Shown: positions 2,130 to 11,681 of the stretch, piece after piece
How positions within the stretch are numbered: the first letter of the stretch is position 1
Layout: each line of letters starts with the position of its first letter
Origin: Gammaproteobacteria bacterium
GTDB lineage: Bacteria > Pseudomonadota > Gammaproteobacteria > Steroidobacterales > XN24
NCBI GenBank assembly: GCA_024640085.1
Contig: JAHEFR010000014.1
Coordinates: forward strand, 1 to 64,000
Reading direction: 5' to 3'
DNA length: 64,000 nt
Position numbers and translations under genes: made by a program
The notes under the pieces: model-generated
Databases searched by the model: none
What the model was told of the DNA's origin: nothing
Seen by the model: the letters and a program-made list of their open reading frames with translations, nothing else

Positions 2130-4859
2130 CTACGTGATACGACTCATATCCCTGGACATCCTGTTTGCCTGGACCAGATTCAGGTTTCGGTATATCAAAG
2201 CTGCAATTCGTGGATATCGTCTGCGCAGCCCTTCCATGTGTTCAGTGGTGAACCGGAGAAGACGCACGTCCGTGACCGAATCGACACTGGCACTGCGGGT
2301 GCCCCCGAAGGCGCCGCCTTCGCCCATGACCGCCCCCCGGGTCATCCGGGAGAGTTCGATCTCCCGGCCCTCCCGCCTGACTGACGCCCTGAGTTCGCCG
2401 TCGAGCACCAGGAAGACCTCGTCGGTGGCTTTTGCGCCTTCCTCCAGGAGTCTGCGGCCGGCGGCGTAATCCCGGATGTCGCTCATCAAGGCAAATATCC
2501 GGGCCTGGGCCCTGTTCAGGCCCCGCAACAGGGGGATCGTCCTCTGGGGGTCGGGGCCGAGATCCAGCCGCAGCAGATCCCAAAGTGTCACGACCCGCAT
2601 GCCGGCACTCAGGGCCGGGGTCAACGTCAGGTCCATTAGCCACGCGACGGCGATCGTAAAGGCGGCCAGCGCCCCGAATTGCACCTGCGTTCGCAGTTCG
2701 CTGGTGGTCATCACCAGGAAGCTCAGAACGAGCACGAGCGACGTGTAGGTGACCGGGCGAATTACAGAGGCCAGCGCACGCTGGACGGCGGTCCCTTCCT
2801 GGCCGCTCGCTCTGGCCTCCATGTTGAAGCGAACCAGGAAATGAATGGTGTCGTCCACGGCGATACCGAGAGCGATACAGGCGATCAGGCTGGTGGTGGG
2901 ACTGAGGGTGATTCCGAGCAGTCCGAGGGTACCGAAGTAGACGCCAACGGCCAGGACGTTGGGGAAAAGCGCCATGAGGCCGATGCGCCAGGAGGTAAAT
3001 ACGGCTGCGAGGATCAGCAGCACGACGAAAAGAGCAACAGCAATGCTCAACAACTGGCCGGCTGCAATATCGGTGACGGTTCTCGTCATGAGCATGATGT
3101 TGCCCGTGACACGCGGTTCCAGCGGGTACGGCACCTGCTCCAGGCGCTGGCGCGTGCGCTCCGCCAACTTCGCAATCGCCCGGGTGTCATCTGCGTTAAT
3201 ACGTACCAGGATGCTGGTCATCCGGTAGGTGCCGTCCACGTACCCGTCCAGGTCCTCGCTGCCGCCGAACAGGAGCAGCTGCTTGGACAATTGCCGGTCA
3301 TCCGGGATGACGAAGAACTCTTTGTCTCCATCATGCAAGGTCTGATTAATGAGCTTGATATGGTCGACGAGCGACGTGGTGCTGCCGACTTCAGGCTGTT
3401 CGGCGAGCCACTCCTGCAGCGACGCCAGCATGGCCAGGTTGGCCGGCTCGACGAAGGTATCCTCTTCCGGCGACTCAATGACGATATAGAAGGAATTAGC
3501 GCCGCCGAACGCGGCGTTGATGCCCTCGAAGTCCTTGCGCACCCGCGTGTCCTGTTTGAAGCCGCCGATGTATTCCGTACCCACCTCGATCCGGCTGGTA
3601 CCAAGCAGCGCCACGGCAAGCAGCAGCAGCCCGGAGACAAGGATCTGGCGCCGCCGCCGGGTCGCAAATCTGACCAGGCTCAGGGCGGTGCGGGTAAATG
3701 CCGCGCTGCCATGGGTCGCCGTCTTACCTGGCAACGGCAGATAACACAGGACCGCCGGAATCATGGTCAGCACGACGAACACGGTAAGAGTGATACCGAC
3801 GAAAGACAGCAGAGAGAATTCGCGGATGGCCGTCAGGGAATTGAACAACAGGGCCAGCAGCCCGGCAGCCGTGGTGGCGCCGCTGATGACCAGGGGCATG
3901 CTCACTTGCTGCAGCACCTCCAGCACGACGTCCCGCCGGGTGAGATTCGAAGACTCGGCGGCCACGGTGTAGTACTCGGAGATCACGTGCATGCAATAGG
4001 CCATGCCCATGGTGATCACCAGCGGGGGCACCAGGGTGGTGACCACGTTGAGCGGGAGATCCAGCCACGCCAGCAAGGCCAGGGTCCAGATCAATGAAGT
4101 GACGATGGCTATCACTGGCAGGACCACCGCCCGGATGCTGCGGAAGGCCATAAACAGGACGGCCGATACAATCGCAATGATCGCAGGTACGGTAACGCGG
4201 AAGCTGTCCATCAGAGCCTTCGACAATGAGGCCTTGATGATCGGCGAGCCGCTCACCCATACGGTCGCGTCCCCGCCCTCCTCGTCTGCGATCGAGCGGA
4301 CGGCGGCGGCGATGCCCTTACCGATGAAGTCGCTGTCGTCGAGACCCTTGAAGTCGATGACCAGCGCGGACACTCGACCGTCCCGGGATACCAGTGTTCC
4401 CAGGTACATGGGGTTGTCCATGATGTCGGAGCGGAGCCGTTCCCTGACACCCGGATCGGTAAAATCCAGGTCACTGCCGCCGGTGAATTCGATCCCGAAC
4501 TCATCGGCCCGCAGTGATTTGGCTGTGGTGAGGGACAGCACATCATGGGCGCCGGGCAGCGCCTGCAGACGCCCCGTCATCCTATCGATCCGCGCCAGGT
4601 TGTCCGCACTGAAAGAGTCATCCGTGGCTAACGCGACTACCACGGATTCTTCGCTCCCGAAGATATGCCGGACCCGATCGTAGTAGACCCGCTCCGGATC
4701 GTCGGCCGACAGCAGTCGGCCCACCGACGGATCGACACTCAGCCTAATGCCGCCGCTTGGGCCACCCAGCAGTTGGGACAACGCGAGTACAGTGACAACC
4801 ATCAACCCGGCGAGCGTCAGTCCGGGATGATCGGCAATTGCTGTCAGCAGGCGATTCAC
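2130..4859 (-). CDS. RND/MMPL-family exporter with C-terminal cNMP-binding domain
   Basis: The 909-aa inner-membrane protein has the MMPL/HpnN-type RND layout: TM1 (about 14-32), a large periplasmic loop (35-225), a block of TM helices (226-375), TM7 (about 405-425), a second periplasmic loop (425-615), and a last TM block (615-770). Residues 786-909 form a cyclic-nucleotide-binding domain. Its phosphate-binding cassette GEGGAFGGTRSA (846-857) keeps the Glu and Arg that contact cyclic nucleotide. Family members export lipids or hydrophobic compounds using the proton gradient. The start is GTG at 4859, with GGAG 8 nt upstream. The gene lies 27 nt after a LolA-like gene, forming a common transporter/periplasmic partner pair. 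The cytosolic CNB domain suggests ligand-gated export; the ligand is unknown. Confidence 0.88.
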   Translation of the reverse strand: MNRLLTAIADHPGLTLAGLMVVTVLALSQLLGGPSGGIRLSVDPSVGRLLSADDPERVYYDRVRHIFGSEESVVVALATDDSFSADNLARIDRMTGRLQALPGAHDVLSLTTAKSLRADEFGIEFTGGSDLDFTDPGVRERLRSDIMDNPMYLGTLVSRDGRVSALVIDFKGLDDSDFIGKGIAAAVRSIADEEGGDATVWVSGSPIIKASLSKALMDSFRVTVPAIIAIVSAVLFMAFRSIRAVVLPVIAIVTSLIWTLALLAWLDLPLNVVTTLVPPLVITMGMAYCMHVISEYYTVAAESSNLTRRDVVLEVLQQVSMPLVISGATTAAGLLALLFNSLTAIREFSLLSFVGITLTVFVVLTMIPAVLCYLPLPGKTATHGSAAFTRTALSLVRFATRRRRQILVSGLLLLAVALLGTSRIEVGTEYIGGFKQDTRVRKDFEGINAAFGGANSFYIVIESPEEDTFVEPANLAMLASLQEWLAEQPEVGSTTSLVDHIKLINQTLHDGDKEFFVIPDDRQLSKQLLLFGGSEDLDGYVDGTYRMTSILVRINADDTRAIAKLAERTRQRLEQVPYPLEPRVTGNIMLMTRTVTDIAAGQLLSIAVALFVVLLILAAVFTSWRIGLMALFPNVLAVGVYFGTLGLLGITLSPTTSLIACIALGIAVDDTIHFLVRFNMEARASGQEGTAVQRALASVIRPVTYTSLVLVLSFLVMTTSELRTQVQFGALAAFTIAVAWLMDLTLTPALSAGMRVVTLWDLLRLDLGPDPQRTIPLLRGLNRAQARIFALMSDIRDYAAGRRLLEEGAKATDEVFLVLDGELRASVRREGREIELSRMTRGAVMGEGGAFGGTRSASVDSVTDVRLLRFTTEHMEGLRRRYPRIAALIYRNLNLVQANRMSRDMSRIT

Positions 4860-4886: not shown

Positions 4887-5687
4887 TCAGTCTTTGTAAA
4901 ACTGCACGGTGTTGAAATAACGCCCCGATATGTCCTCGTCAAGGGAGATGTGCTTGACGTGAATCCAGCTGCTGGTCTCTTCTCCCACGTCGTTCATTTC
5001 CATGTCGTGCGCCGTCCACAGGCCGTTGACCTGGGCCACTGTCGTCGGATCCACCGTCAGGCGCTTGTGGAGTTGATCGCTGGAATCGAAGTACTCCGTC
5101 TGAAGCGCCACGCAATTCTCCTTATCGATGTAGGAGACGATACGGCTGTAGGCCGATTCTGAGCCGGGTTCAGTGACTTGTGCGACAACATACGTCGCCC
5201 GACCCGCCACCTCGGCGTCGGCAAGACGCTCCGATCCCAGGGTGTCCGAACTCATCTGCAGGAGCCGCAGATCCTCGTGGCTGAAGTCGGTACCCCAGAT
5301 GCTGTTGCTGCCGCCACCGACGATACGACGCGGGCGGACCAGAGCCGGGAGATACATGTAGACGACGTCCCTCGGCTTGTGTTCGATGACGAGATAGGCC
5401 GAGCCCTTGATGTCCTGAGGCCCGTCTATCCGGATCATCAGGCGCACGTGGCCTTCATCATCCTGCTTCCAGTGAAGGCGGGCGTCCATCACCTTCTCGT
5501 TGCCGGCCCGGTCCCGGGACTTGAGCTCTATGAACTGGATGCTGGTCTTTTCCGGAAAATTTCCCCGGGCGCACTCCCTTATTTCATCCGCCGTCGTCAA
5601 TTCGGCGACGGCGGATCCCGAACCGCATAGTAGAAGCATCACCGACAGCGCCAGAGAGCGCGCCACGAAATATTCCGACCGATTCAT
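4887..5687 (-). CDS. LolA-like outer-membrane lipoprotein-sorting protein
   Basis: The 266-aa protein begins with a Sec signal peptide (about 1-28, cleavage after SAVA). The mature part is of the LolA-like type often annotated 'outer membrane lipoprotein-sorting protein', including a MYLPALVRPRRI stretch and a GTDFSHEDLR motif typical of members paired with MMPL transporters. It probably carries a hydrophobic ligand in the periplasm for the exporter encoded 27 nt downstream. The reading frame is open back to 6062, but the ATG at 5687 is preferred because it has GGGGGAAGA directly upstream and starts the signal peptide. The precise substrate cannot be read from the sequence. Confidence 0.85.
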   Translation of the reverse strand: MNRSEYFVARSLALSVMLLLCGSGSAVAELTTADEIRECARGNFPEKTSIQFIELKSRDRAGNEKVMDARLHWKQDDEGHVRLMIRIDGPQDIKGSAYLVIEHKPRDVVYMYLPALVRPRRIVGGGSNSIWGTDFSHEDLRLLQMSSDTLGSERLADAEVAGRATYVVAQVTEPGSESAYSRIVSYIDKENCVALQTEYFDSSDQLHKRLTVDPTTVAQVNGLWTAHDMEMNDVGEETSSWIHVKHISLDEDISGRYFNTVQFYKD

Positions 5688-6155
5688 TCTTCCCCCTTCC
5701 CCTGCACATGCCGAGCCCACGGCGCCCGACCGTCCGCCGTCATGCGTCACTATTCTTCCTGCCCCATGGCGGATGCAGGAGCTTAACAAATGTCGTCTGT
5801 GGCGCGGCAGATATGTTCGCTCTCGACCGACCGTATGGAATTCCACATGTCGGCCCGACACCCTGCCAGGGGCCCCGACCGTGACCTGCGCCGGACGGGG
5901 CCGCTGCCGTCCGGATATCCGTGGCATTGGTGATCGGTCCCTGGGGATGATGCTTCGATTCCGAAATTGTGTCTCGCATATACTTGGGTCACACAACCGC
6001 TCATGTTTGCGAATGATCTGCAGGGTAGGCGCTGAGGTAACGTGAGAAAGTCCCTTCCCCACCGTTGCGGAGACTGGTGTGAATTCGGGAGCTTTTCGAT
6101 ATTTGTTCTTTAAAGATATAATAACTATTTGTTATTAAAGGTATTATTCGGATCA
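5688..6155. other. 468-nt divergent intergenic region
   Basis: This region separates the LolA-like/RND operon (minus) from copA (plus) and must carry both promoters. It contains a perfect 8-bp inverted repeat, CCGGACGG (5891-5898) and CCGTCCGG (5907-5914), without a following T-run. The copA-proximal 60 nt are strongly A+T-rich. No small gene is convincing. Confidence 0.5.
6117..6137 (+). promoter_or_regulatory. copA promoter -10 with overlapping palindrome
   Basis: A consensus -10, TATAAT (6117-6122), overlaps a perfect palindrome TAATAAC-TATTT-GTTATTA (6119-6137). The best -35 at 17-bp spacing is poor (TTTCGA, 6094-6099), as expected for a regulated promoter. The palindrome does not look like a CueR box, so another metal-responsive regulator is possible. 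Confidence 0.5.
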
Positions 6156-8545: not shown

Positions 8546-9058
8546 TCAGGCAGAGGTGCGTCGCCGCAACCTGGAGATAGCGGTCCCAAGCCCCAGCAGA
8601 AGGATGCCCAGGAGGCCAATCAGGGGCACCGGACCGGCCGTGTCGGGCAGGGTCTCAGGCATCGCCTCCAGGCTGACGGACTCCTCGATGACCTCGACCG
8701 GCAGCTCGTCGACCTCCATCGCGGGCCCGTCTTCCGGATTTGGCAGCGAAAGGACGATGACACGGCCCTCCGTGGTCTCCCGATAGTAAATGCGGATCTT
8801 CTGGCCGGCTTTGAGGTCCTGGATCCTGACCGGCTCGCCCTGGACCTTGATCGATGCGCCCCGAGGGATCCTGTAGGCCTGTCTGCCGCTGCCGTCATCA
8901 TGCCTCATCGTGAGCAGGGTGCCCCTGACGCTGACCACCTCGCCGGCCACCCGCTGGATGTCCGTCTTCTGAACGGTGACGACCTGGGCCTCCTGGGCAA
9001 CAGGCACGAATGACCATGCCAGCAGCGCGATGACGGTGACAGCCCGGAATAGTTTCAT
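8546..9058 (-). CDS. Secreted protein with LPDTAG/TM/Arg C-terminal sorting tail
   Basis: The 170-aa protein has an N-terminal signal peptide (about 1-22), a small beta-rich domain (about 25-100; VVSVRGTLLTMRHDDG, IKVQGEPVRIQDLKAGQKIRIYY) similar in pattern to small OB-like envelope domains, an acidic linker, then a classical tripartite sorting tail: LPDTAG (137-142), a hydrophobic helix, and RLRRR at the end. That tail is what a sortase cleaves. The gene lies 79 nt downstream of a class D sortase gene on the same strand, so it is very likely its dedicated substrate. The start at 9058 is supported by GGAGAGGAG just upstream. The function of the anchored domain is unknown. Confidence 0.8.
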   Translation of the reverse strand: MKLFRAVTVIALLAWSFVPVAQEAQVVTVQKTDIQRVAGEVVSVRGTLLTMRHDDGSGRQAYRIPRGASIKVQGEPVRIQDLKAGQKIRIYYRETTEGRVIVLSLPNPEDGPAMEVDELPVEVIEESVSLEAMPETLPDTAGPVPLIGLLGILLLGLGTAISRLRRRTSA

Positions 9059-9137
9059 GTTCTCCTCTCCTTCGGTGGACGCCGGCATCCGCTCCAGGGC
9101 GCCCGGGGGCGTCAGCGTATCGGTGAATAACAGTGCC

Positions 9138-9932
9138 CTAGATGATTTCCGATCCGGCCAGTGATGCCTTCACGATATACCGTTTCGGAGCGTGCCCCAC
9201 AAAGTAGAACGGGTAGCAGGTGACCAGCGTGATCATGCTGTCGTCCGAACCGGTCAAGACGTGGACGTCGTTCTTCTCGACGACATCGATGTCCGTGACC
9301 TGATACAGGAACCGCTCGCGCCACGTGACCAACTGGATTTCGTCACCGACGCTGATGTCCTTCAATACCCTGAAGAATCCATCCCGGTGACCGGCTATCC
9401 CTATGTTTCCCAGGCCACCGGGTCTCGCCGTGCCAGGGATCCGGCCCACCGCCCGGTTCAGGGTCAGCTCGTCGATGCCGTCGAGTACGGGCACCTGCAA
9501 CGCGAGGGTGGGGATGCGCAGTAGCGCCTGGGGCGCGTTCATGTCTATCGCGAGGCTCGCCTGGTAGTCCTCCACGCGTTTCGGCGACCAGAGGCTGTAG
9601 TCGTAATCGATGAATTCTGGCAGTGAGGGTGGCGGCAAGGCTGACCCGACTTCCATTCCCGAGGTTTCGTCACCCACCACCGGGAGCGTCGGTATCTCTG
9701 CAGCATCCCCGGCCTGTGCGTTACCGGCGGCGTCCCCCACCTGCCCGACTATGGCTACGCTGGCTGTCTGACTGGCACGCGCCGCCGCCATCGCCTGTCG
9801 CGCCGCCTCGAATGCCTGCAGATCCTGCCGTTGGCCGACCTCGCGGTGGATCTGCGCCGCGGCCCAGACAGTGATCAATGCCGCTCCCAGGCCGAGGCAG
9901 AGTCGTTGCATAACCTTCAACCGGTCAACCAA
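9138..9932 (-). CDS. Class D sortase
   Basis: The 264-aa membrane-anchored transpeptidase has an N-terminal TM segment (about 10-27), an Ala-rich linker and a C-terminal sortase beta-barrel. The catalytic residues are visible: H182 in AGHRDGFF, C239 in TLVTCYPF and R251 in APKRY. Sortases cut an LPxTG-type motif and link the protein to an amine acceptor. The neighbouring gene supplies such a motif (LPDTAG). The start is TTG at 9932 with GGAGG 8 nt upstream; an internal ATG at codon 8 is an alternative. Sortases of this type are known in some Gram-negative bacteria, but the acceptor there is poorly understood. Confidence 0.92.
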   Translation of the reverse strand: MVDRLKVMQRLCLGLGAALITVWAAAQIHREVGQRQDLQAFEAARQAMAAARASQTASVAIVGQVGDAAGNAQAGDAAEIPTLPVVGDETSGMEVGSALPPPSLPEFIDYDYSLWSPKRVEDYQASLAIDMNAPQALLRIPTLALQVPVLDGIDELTLNRAVGRIPGTARPGGLGNIGIAGHRDGFFRVLKDISVGDEIQLVTWRERFLYQVTDIDVVEKNDVHVLTGSDDSMITLVTCYPFYFVGHAPKRYIVKASLAGSEII

Positions 9933-9998
9933 TTCCGGATCCTCCCGATCTCCCCCCGATGATTCTAGCGGATACGCACCGTATGGGTATCTCCCGGC

Positions 9999-10271
9999 TC
10001 ATGCCGTCCACAACGACCAGACGCCGATCCCGATGAACCCGAGCCCGGCAATGATGGACAGGTGGCGGGGGCTGACAACCTGGGTCAGCAGGCCCCCCGC
10101 CATCACCCCGATGGCTGAGGTCAGTACCAGAGCCGTCGAGGCGCCGACGAAAACCAGCCACTTGTCAGCCGCACGGTCTGCGGCGAACAGCAGCGTGGCC
10201 AGTTGGGTCTTGTCGCCGAGTTCGGCGATGAATATCGTGCCGAAGACGATGGCCAGGGTTTTTATGTCCAC
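9999..10271 (-). CDS. Half-size TMEM165/GDT1 family transporter
   Basis: The 90-aa membrane protein has three predicted TM helices and one copy of the family motif ELGDKTQ (17-23). GDT1 proteins are Mn2+/Ca2+ exporters and usually contain two such units in one chain of about 190 residues; this one has a single unit and would have to dimerise. The start is GTG at 10271, with GGAG 8 nt upstream; the frame is open to 10334 but the extra residues are not membrane-like. It lies upstream of the sortase gene on the same strand. I see no yybP-ykoY-type Mn riboswitch upstream. Confidence 0.85.
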   Translation of the reverse strand: MDIKTLAIVFGTIFIAELGDKTQLATLLFAADRAADKWLVFVGASTALVLTSAIGVMAGGLLTQVVSPRHLSIIAGLGFIGIGVWSLWTA

Positions 10272-10438
10272 CGGTGTCTCTCCACTGAAATCGTTTCGTG
10301 CCAATCCGTCCTGCAGATTCGAGCGGCCCCTCAATCACGGCCCCGGCCGCCTTGTTTCGAGGTCCGTATCAGTTGCCCGGCAGCTGGACCGGATCGGCCA
10401 AGCAATGGGACCCGCGTCGGTCGCGGGCGGGGTCCGGC

Positions 10439-11137
10439 TCAGGGCCCGGCCAGACTCTCCTTGCGGGCGATCTCGTATGCCTCCTCGTCGGCGAACTTCC
10501 GCAGCGGATCCTCCGAACGCTTGTGCCAGTGCACGAACGCATCCATGCAGATACCGATGCGCCAGTCCCTGGCGGAGGGCGTGGGCATCGGCCGGTGCAG
10601 GAGATAAGACGGGAAGATCGTCAGACAACCCTCTATCGGGCGTACCGCCGCCATGTTTTCGCAGAAGATATTGGTCGGTTCCGGACGCTGAAACATCAAC
10701 AGGCCCTCGGTGGGGTCGCGGGTGGCGGGGACCTGGACGTAATAGCAGCCGCTCAGAGTGGCCGGGTGGTGGTGGTGCCAGGGTCCGTCCACCCAGTTCT
10801 CGTTTGTCTGGATCAGGACCCATCCCTGGATACAGTAGACGTCGAACGGGGCGTTCTTGGAATGCCCGTGACGGTGGGCCAGGATGCGTGTGCACGCCTC
10901 CACGAACTTGGCTTTCAGCACCCGCAGATATTCGATGTTCTCCAGGTTGGCGGGCGTAAACAGTTCTTCCCGGGTCTGGTAGCCGTAACCACTTCCGTGA
11001 CGCTGGAAATACCCTTGCCGCCAGAGTTCTCCCAGCTTTTCCTTGATCTCGCCATGGAAGCGGTGCATCTCCGGGACCGGGTAGCGCCAGGTCGGCGTGC
11101 CGAAGATCATGTTGGTCTGAAACTGGACGTTGCTCAT
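10439..11137 (-). CDS. Putative 2OG-Fe(II) oxygenase-like protein
   Basis: The 232-aa cytoplasmic protein matches the jelly-roll pattern of the putative 2OG-Fe(II) oxygenases near phage and bacterial prolyl hydroxylases. The HHHH cluster at 121-124 with LSGCYYVQ after it would hold the iron ligands, IFPSYLLHRP places the distal His at 181, and R193 in DWRIGIC would bind 2-oxoglutarate. The substrate is unknown. It is downstream of a TIR-like gene on the same strand (gap 91 nt). A second member of the same broad family is encoded at 54257-54928. Confidence 0.72.
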   Translation of the reverse strand: MSNVQFQTNMIFGTPTWRYPVPEMHRFHGEIKEKLGELWRQGYFQRHGSGYGYQTREELFTPANLENIEYLRVLKAKFVEACTRILAHRHGHSKNAPFDVYCIQGWVLIQTNENWVDGPWHHHHPATLSGCYYVQVPATRDPTEGLLMFQRPEPTNIFCENMAAVRPIEGCLTIFPSYLLHRPMPTPSARDWRIGICMDAFVHWHKRSEDPLRKFADEEAYEIARKESLAGP

Positions 11138-11228
11138 CGTGCGATCCTTTCCGCCCTGGCGTCACGCGGCCTGGTCCACGACGGGACCGAATTGCCCGGC
11201 CGGCACGCGCTTCCCGTTGTCGCCATTT

Positions 11229-11681
11229 TCAGGACAGGTCGAACTCGATGACGTCGAAACGTTTCGTGTCGTCGTGTCTGGCGGCCATCCGGATGGCGTC
11301 CTCGATGGTCCGGGAGTTCCAGCCAACCACGTGTTCGGCTTTCTCCTTCAATTCCGGGGGAGCGTCCTGGGGACCAAACGGTTCAACCAGAACGATCGGG
11401 ACGTGATGTGCCCCGGCGGCCTGGACCTGGAAATCCACCCACTGGCGCTGTGAATCGTACATCCCGGACAGTACGATCAGCACTTCCGCGGATTTCATCG
11501 CGTCCAGCACGCGGGTGCGCCTCTGGGCCACGGTTTCTCCTTCCGGCGACGCCTCGGGATCGCAGACGTTGGCGTAGAAGAAGTTCGTCGTGCTTTCCAG
11601 ATATTCGAACAGCCTGAGGTAGTCGTCGTCCTTTACCCAGCCGTGGCTCGGAAAGATCCGGAACGGTTTATTCTCAGACAC
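11229..11681 (-). CDS. Orphan TIR-like (MTH538/DUF1863-type) domain protein
   Basis: The 150-aa protein is a single TIR-like domain: strand 1 FRIFPSHGW (7-15), an acidic loop DDDYLRLFEYL, the segment LDAMKSAEVLIVLSG (59-73), and RQWVDFQVQAAG (79-90). In this family the last motif normally reads WVxxEI, with Glu as the NAD-cleaving residue; here Gln85 stands at that place, so NADase activity is doubtful. Related domains include ThsB of Thoeris defence, but no ThsA-like or other NAD effector is adjacent. The start is GTG with AGGAG 7 nt upstream. A binding or scaffold role is as likely as a defence role. Confidence 0.75.
   Translation of the reverse strand: MSENKPFRIFPSHGWVKDDDYLRLFEYLESTTNFFYANVCDPEASPEGETVAQRRTRVLDAMKSAEVLIVLSGMYDSQRQWVDFQVQAAGAHHVPIVLVEPFGPQDAPPELKEKAEHVVGWNSRTIEDAIRMAARHDDTKRFDVIEFDLS

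Follow-up and report, generated by a model that had tools for sequence, protein, structure and literature searches.

Sortases are the textbook wall enzymes of Gram-positive bacteria, and Gram-negative peptidoglycan normally carries meso-diaminopimelate, the residue that serves as acceptor in Bacillus. The class D sortase of B. subtilis, YhcS, immobilises YfkN (LPDTA) and YhcR (LPDTS) (PMC3222306, PMC12445088). In B. anthracis, SrtC, which acts on BasH and BasI and which PMC12445088 places in class D, cleaves LPNTA at the Thr-Ala bond, the nucleophile being the m-Dpm of crossbridges (PMC3297441). For Gram-negative bacteria, a dedicated sortase with an adjacent LPXTG target, and no further target in the genome, has been published for class GN (PMC3237569, citing earlier work), where the TIGR03784 sortase is paired with the vWA/VIT target TIGR03788. 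Other C-terminal sorting systems, namely rhombosortase/GlyGly-CTERM, exosortase/PEP-CTERM and myxosortase/MYXO-CTERM, also use a motif, a helix and a basic end; rhombosortase lies near its target in most sole-target genomes (PMC3237569), and the Gram-negative rhombosortase and myxosortase send proteins to the surface, not to peptidoglycan (PMC6219818, PMC11980579). L,D-transpeptidases and sortase are given as the two classes of protein-to-peptidoglycan enzymes in PMC8263019; L,D-transpeptidases do this in Gram-negatives, and in the relevant passages Firmicutes are the only group for which sortase is named. The table of a 2025 review enters the sortase as 'Not known' in what appears to be the E. 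coli column (PMC12445088).

We analysed a stretch of 64,000 nucleotides from a gammaproteobacterial genome (the window), on which an earlier note, made from the letters alone, had described a Gram-negative class D sortase followed by one dedicated substrate. The features are collected in the table below; other loci and genomes bear our own L and G numbers. No paper on this sortase/substrate pair was found in the literature searched, which was thin on subscription journals, and the pair may be published elsewhere.

Table. Features of the sortase locus and of its surroundings in the window
Feature	Position	Strand	Basis and remarks
Substrate, 170 aa	8546..9058	-	ORF; signal-peptide-like N-terminus, OB-like barrel (predicted), acidic unstructured linker, C-terminal sorting tail
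Sorting tail LPDTAGPVPLIGLLGILLLGLGTAISRLRRRTSA: motif, hydrophobic helix, basic end	8549..8650	-	Tail profile match 8555-8650
79-nt gap from sortase stop to substrate ATG, with GGAGAGGAG before the ATG	9059..9137	-	ORF coordinates
Class D-like sortase, 264 aa	9138..9932	-	TTG start at 9932; PF04203 and NCBIfam NF058671/NF033746 best matches
Short GDT1/UPF0016 protein, 111 aa	9999-10334	-	One matched stretch; 66 nt upstream of the sortase
TIR-like protein resembling Thoeris ThsB	11229-11681	-	PF08937 27.1 bits (cut-off 21.2); PADLOC ThsB1 34.4 bits
MMPL-family transporter with C-terminal cyclic-nucleotide-binding domain	2130-4859	-	Single frame
LolA-like protein	4887-6062	-	Just upstream of the MMPL transporter

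Judged by its domain, the window gene is a true sortase. PF04203 scored 91.1 bits, above its gathering cut-off of 26.6, and the catalytic residues His182, Cys239 and Arg251 reported in the earlier note are in place when numbered from the TTG at 9932. This His/Cys/Arg triad is kept in 80 of 80 aligned sortases, i.e. the window sequence and 79 of the 80 loci (L055 left out) retained as the best of at least 573 relatives. The N-terminal segment is hydrophobic by eye, and the solved chains closest by sequence are 2ln7 and 4d70, which we take to be class D sortase structures. A PF04203 search of the 3.19-Mb genome returned a single sortase, on contig 43. BamA/YaeT is present in the same genome (750 bits, cut-off 297), so the host is diderm, which supports the description of the pair as Gram-negative.

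The assignment to class D stands as the nearest class rather than as a membership. NF058671 (LPxTATN-specific SrtD) is the best single model for the window sortase, with 127.7 bits against a cut-off of 140, followed by the class D model NF033746 with 119.4 bits against 165, both below the curated cut-offs; the GN, E and C models gave 85, 77 and 69.7 bits. All 80 scanned sortases match both class D models at E ≤ 0.001, and they match the GN, E and C models as well; NF058671 reaches an E of 6.1e-45 at best, as against 5.2e-28 for GN and E. The likeness to the Gram-positive class D systems lies in these best scores, in the closest solved chains and in the LPxTA motif, the window LPDTA being the motif of B. 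subtilis YfkN. The window system differs from them by its diderm host, the missed cut-offs, the small OB-like substrates and a tail conserved as xLPLxGLLG. The sorting signal that accompanies the LPxTATN sortases, NF058670, weakly matches 12 of the 58 tail proteins described below, but the window tail reads LPDTAGP and not LPxTATN.

The pair also resembles class GN in being Gram-negative and in joining an enzyme to a single adjacent target (PMC3237569), and class GN target tails, e.g. FAPTASPAPL and FPATATSA, resemble the window tail. However, the class GN model stayed at 85 bits with a cut-off of 158.25, a vWA/VIT domain is absent from the window substrate by Pfam and NCBIfam, and most class GN targets that pass the cut-off have open frames near 700 aa in length, compared to 170 aa here. 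The sole TIGR03788 match in the own genome lies on another contig, with 39.4 bits and a cut-off of 551.65. Class GN and window-type systems coexist in three related genomes (G002, G034 and G056), and a quick tree of the two groups, built without class A-F references, separated 89 sortases of the window type from 19 that we had ourselves labelled GN, with a branch support of 100. The window pair is therefore distinct from class GN pairs. G056 (L007/L116, L027 and L030) carries two window-type pairs, each with its own substrate, in addition to a class GN pair. Rhombosortase, exosortase and myxosortase are unrelated membrane enzymes with other motifs, whereas the window enzyme is a sortase; the MYXO-CTERM and PFE-CTERM models remained below their cut-offs on the window tail (11.1 bits for 20 and 11.8 for 24).

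In the earlier note, a small secreted protein begins 79 nt after the sortase, its C-terminus made up of LPDTAG, a hydrophobic helix and RLRRR, and reading of the two minus-strand frames agrees on each point when the substrate starts at the ATG at 9058. The ORF list gives a longer frame from an ATG at 9088. The shorter one is preferred because the Shine-Dalgarno-like stretch GGAGAGGAG lies directly 5' of it and because the open frame of the nearest relative, L003, opens one codon before the corresponding Met; the ATG at 9058 is thus the most likely start on sequence grounds. The tail matches the nine-tail profile A1, of which it is itself a member, with an E of 2.1e-12. Columns L1, P2, T4, P9 and R29 are invariant in the nine tails, and the motif of these close relatives carries T-A in eight and T-G in one. 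The conservation extends beyond the cut site into the helix (xLPLxGLLG), and the resulting signature LPxT[AG]S-x-LPLxGLLG is usable to detect further such proteins. TIGR01167 (LPXTG_anchor) gave 13.0 bits on the window tail, under its cut-off of 15.9, and 16.0 bits in another scan; it was rejected for counting substrates as it is unspecific, with matches in 14 of 14 control genomes, nine of them over the cut-off. Two LPXTG_anchor matches that outscored the window tail (L141 and L142) were discarded, the frames read there not ending in a sorting tail.

The substrate domain, called unrecognised in the earlier note, indeed reaches no Pfam or NCBIfam cut-off, but it can now be given a probable fold and be aligned with two other substrate types. 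In the AlphaFold2 model, a barrel at about residues 41-100 (ten-residue pLDDT means of 83-97) is followed by a linker without structure (about 107-141) and by a helix at the C-terminus, and a barrel is also predicted with high confidence for the two-cysteine relative L112. The PDB fold matches of both models are weak (Foldseek E > 0.04, VIA Z < 6), and many are to what we presume to be OB-fold proteins, such as CusF, eIF5A, proteasomal ATPase N-domains and molybdate-binding domains. We therefore restrict the label to OB-like, for a small barrel that is confidently predicted. Profile comparison with the tail columns removed and the signal peptides kept related the window type to the two-cysteine type (probability 99.2, E 1.4e-19) and to the double-domain type (98.8, E 5.4e-17), the latter found mostly in Acidobacteriota loci. 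Domains were scanned in 58 tail proteins, i.e. those of the window, L041 and 56 A1-positive loci among the best 80 of at least 573. The commonest matches at E ≤ 0.1, PF00746 and TIGR01167 with 23 members each, cover the anchor motif only. By eye, no OB-like domain was evident in L091 (445 aa), in L121 or in L119, whose 97 aa are almost entirely linker.

The L119 protein (5494-5784 of its locus, plus strand; 97 aa by the chosen start) adjoins a sortase labelled Deltaproteobacteria. Its N-terminus ends in ..AALAC and is followed by a Pro/Glu/Val linker and an LPKTAS tail. If its Cys were lipidated, the protein would be like a Braun-lipoprotein tether, the lipobox being non-canonical.

A copper or metal role was considered for the window substrate and set aside. 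The CusF family PF11604 gave 12.3 bits with a cut-off of 27, and CusF 2vb2, as a fold match (Z 5.3, rmsd 2.7 over 56 residues), shares its rank with many further chains. The substrate gene does adjoin one for a P-type ATPase with heavy-metal-binding domains, but this vicinity simply reflects a gene order common to G001 and G004.

In these two genomes, the order ATPase, substrate, sortase, GDT1, 2OG oxygenase, TIR protein, nuclease-like protein and thiolase is kept. The identity to the window genes is 57 and 49% for the sortase and 58 and 69% for the substrate (the 69% over 95 residues), lower than the 78-90% of the 2OG, nuclease-like and thiolase genes; GDT1 and the ATPase, with 57-67%, are no better kept than the pair. 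Against L031 and L032, the sortase, substrate, GDT1 and ATPase of block 8546-11681 show 49-69% identity, and the TIR-like protein gene is syntenic in G001 and G004. As to further conserved partners, four of the 30 largest neighbour clusters were read by eye as antisense frames, histidine kinases, response regulators and MscS-like proteins; many further clusters are common only to close relatives.

The earlier note would have taken a tail not conserved beside the sortase in relatives as refuting the pair; tails do stand there, and the pair withstands this check. Among 59 related genomes, the own genome included, the window sortase found a match at E ≤ 0.001 in 25. The match is close (best E ≤ 7.1e-38) in nine, own included, and the other 16 genomes, with E ≥ 2.5e-20, fall on the tree side labelled GN. 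Reading of the frames placed a tail protein next to the close sortase in eight of the nine genomes, with two such pairs in G056; in the ninth, G009, the sortase lies 209 nt from the contig end. At E ≤ 0.01, profile A1 detected a tail in 10 of the 59 genomes, which are these eight and two of the 50 others. The co-occurrence of tail and sortase has a one-sided Fisher p of 1.8e-7, to be read with the facts that the nine tails of A1 come from these eight genomes and that the genomes are akin; the evidential weight therefore lies on the scarcity of the tail in the other 50. The two additional matches were rejected as window-type tails: the one in G006 is a class GN vWA target beside a GN sortase (L132), and the one in G033 (L131) was not recovered as a sorting tail and was taken as chance. 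In a wider sample of 274 genomes of the class Gammaproteobacteria, profile A9, which includes the window sequence, detected a sortase at E ≤ 1e-15 in 37, with more than 110 bits only in the own genome. The tail profile A10 at E ≤ 0.001 was found in two, the own genome, both of whose tails are members of A10, and G144, where tail and sortase lie on one contig about 1.4 kb apart.

A scan of genome contigs extended the linkage to other phyla. It gave at least 573 confirmed sortase relatives among at least 591 candidates, and the best 80 were kept. The 79 of these placed in the tree comprise 42 Acidobacteriota, 34 Pseudomonadota, two Myxococcota and one without a label, the named genera among the best 80 including Parahaliea, Seongchinamella, Granulicella and Edaphobacter. 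A C-terminal tail protein is present in 67 of these 80 loci by a 30-tail profile (≥ 17 bits) built largely from loci later searched with it, and in 56 by the independent A1 at ≥ 20 bits; in the A1 ranking, a tail protein at 13.6 bits is followed by an unrelated frame at 8.8 bits. Again among the best 80 of at least 573, 57 of the 67 tail proteins share the strand of the sortase and have their end 500-857 nt downstream of its stop, and the remaining ten are directly upstream on the same strand (6), 1.9 kb upstream (1) or on the opposite strand (3). In 13 of the 80 loci, the DNA fetched around the sortase held no tail protein. The contig of L045 ends inside the likely substrate, and those of L070 and L085 stop 398 and 531 nt after the sortase. 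L116 lies on the L007 contig (G056) at zero tree distance and is not independent of it. Tail and sortase thus stay linked across phyla. In L088, L090 and L097, three loci without an LPxTA protein that form one small Acidobacteriota clade (Holophagae/Thermoanaerobaculales), the next sequence after the sortase is that of an L,D-transpeptidase (YkuD, YkuD_2), of which L090 has only a fragment.

The claim of a single dedicated substrate does not hold, a second tail protein being encoded on another contig. Counting tails recognisable to a profile, A1 found two good ones in the own genome, with E values of 2.1e-12 and 1.6e-7 and a next best of 0.76. A10 found the same two, the second at 3.7e-12, followed by 0.06; this second tail is absent from A1 but a member of A10. 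The second protein, L041, lies on contig 37, apart from the sole PF04203 sortase, and its tail MPTTASPLPLIGLAGGLFVMLGGLAGYLRRRG carries the motif MPTTAS. Close homologues in G001 (L134) and G004 (L135), with 69 and 49% identity, are likewise away from the sortase, while two-cysteine-type proteins with 25 and 24% identity to L041 adjoin the sortase in G002 and G022. As G000, G001 (about 80% complete) and G004 have one close sortase each, one enzyme probably serves two substrates, the second in trans.

Considering these data and the Bacillus precedents, we propose, with a probability of about 0.6, that the sortase cuts the substrate and joins it to an amine, probably that of meso-diaminopimelate in peptidoglycan. 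The sequences themselves give the catalytic residues, the tail, the linkage, the conservation and the predicted fold; from export to the final place and role of the OB-like domain, we infer the following course. Sec would export the substrate, the OB-like domain folding in the periplasm, and the hydrophobic tail with its arginines would retain it in the inner membrane. The sortase, held by its N-terminal helix, would cut LPDTA between Thr and Ala, Cys239 with His182 and Arg251 forming a thioester from which the substrate would be passed to the amine. The likeliest acceptor would be meso-diaminopimelate of lipid II or peptidoglycan, through its free side-chain amine, and the product would be an OB-like domain attached to the thin periplasmic wall by a flexible acidic linker some 37 residues long. 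The second tail protein would probably be handled by the same sortase. The cut LPDT/AG and the joining of Thr to meso-diaminopimelate follow the YhcS and SrtC precedents, and since the class D cut-offs are missed, taking the acceptor over from Bacillus is an argument by analogy. The 13 loci without a tail protein and the different-looking L091, L119 and L121 proteins also speak against the proposal, as does the delivery to the surface by rhombosortase and myxosortase. The L,D-transpeptidase sequences behind the L088, L090 and L097 sortases are a lead that also points toward peptidoglycan, of limited weight because they belong to one small clade.

It is unlikely, though worth serious attention, that the substrate is instead joined to an amine lipid, e.g. 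phosphatidylethanolamine, and could thereby be moved to the outer membrane or to the cell surface, in line with what has been proposed for GlyGly-CTERM proteins. In Vibrio, rhombosortase cuts VesB, and the protein carries glycerophosphoethanolamine ahead of its secretion (PMC6219818); the surface is also where MYXO-CTERM proteins arrive (PMC11980579), and the conservation past the cut into the helix (xLPLxGLLG) could mean a membrane-tuned reaction. However, the window enzyme has a true sortase domain, nearest to class D, one Bacillus member of which uses the m-Dpm of peptidoglycan (PMC3297441), and no secretion gene was recognised among the four neighbour clusters read.

Sortases without an acceptor can hydrolyse, and the substrate might then be released into the periplasm; or the substrates might be polymerised in a pilin-like manner, pilus assembly by sortase D being mentioned in PMC12445088. 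We consider either outcome improbable. Lysine occupies no invariant column in the seven window-type or the 21 two-cysteine-type substrates, so no shared polymerising lysine is seen, which argues against pilus assembly. That the neighbours are unrelated, with the tail a plain membrane anchor and LPDTAG a chance match, is very improbable and already disfavoured by the linkage: LPXTG-like models are unspecific when used alone, but tail and sortase are kept together across phyla and the A10 tail is confined to two of the 274 genomes.

Returning to attachment to the wall, the broader proposition, that a sortase system widespread among diderms attaches OB-like domains covalently to periplasmic peptidoglycan in Gammaproteobacteria and Acidobacteriota, one enzyme being able to serve substrates in cis and in trans, seems to us possible, at somewhat less than even odds. 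Similar gene pairs are present in many other diderm bacteria, and the pair bears on the function of a sortase under an outer membrane. This compact pair makes the question of the acceptor directly testable, since an acceptor is predicted, the substrate is small and foldable, the second substrate, encoded in trans, offers an internal control, and some relatives belong to named genera. If the proposal is true, it would add a sortase route of wall attachment in Gram-negatives, beside the L,D-transpeptidases that serve Braun lipoprotein and outer-membrane barrels.
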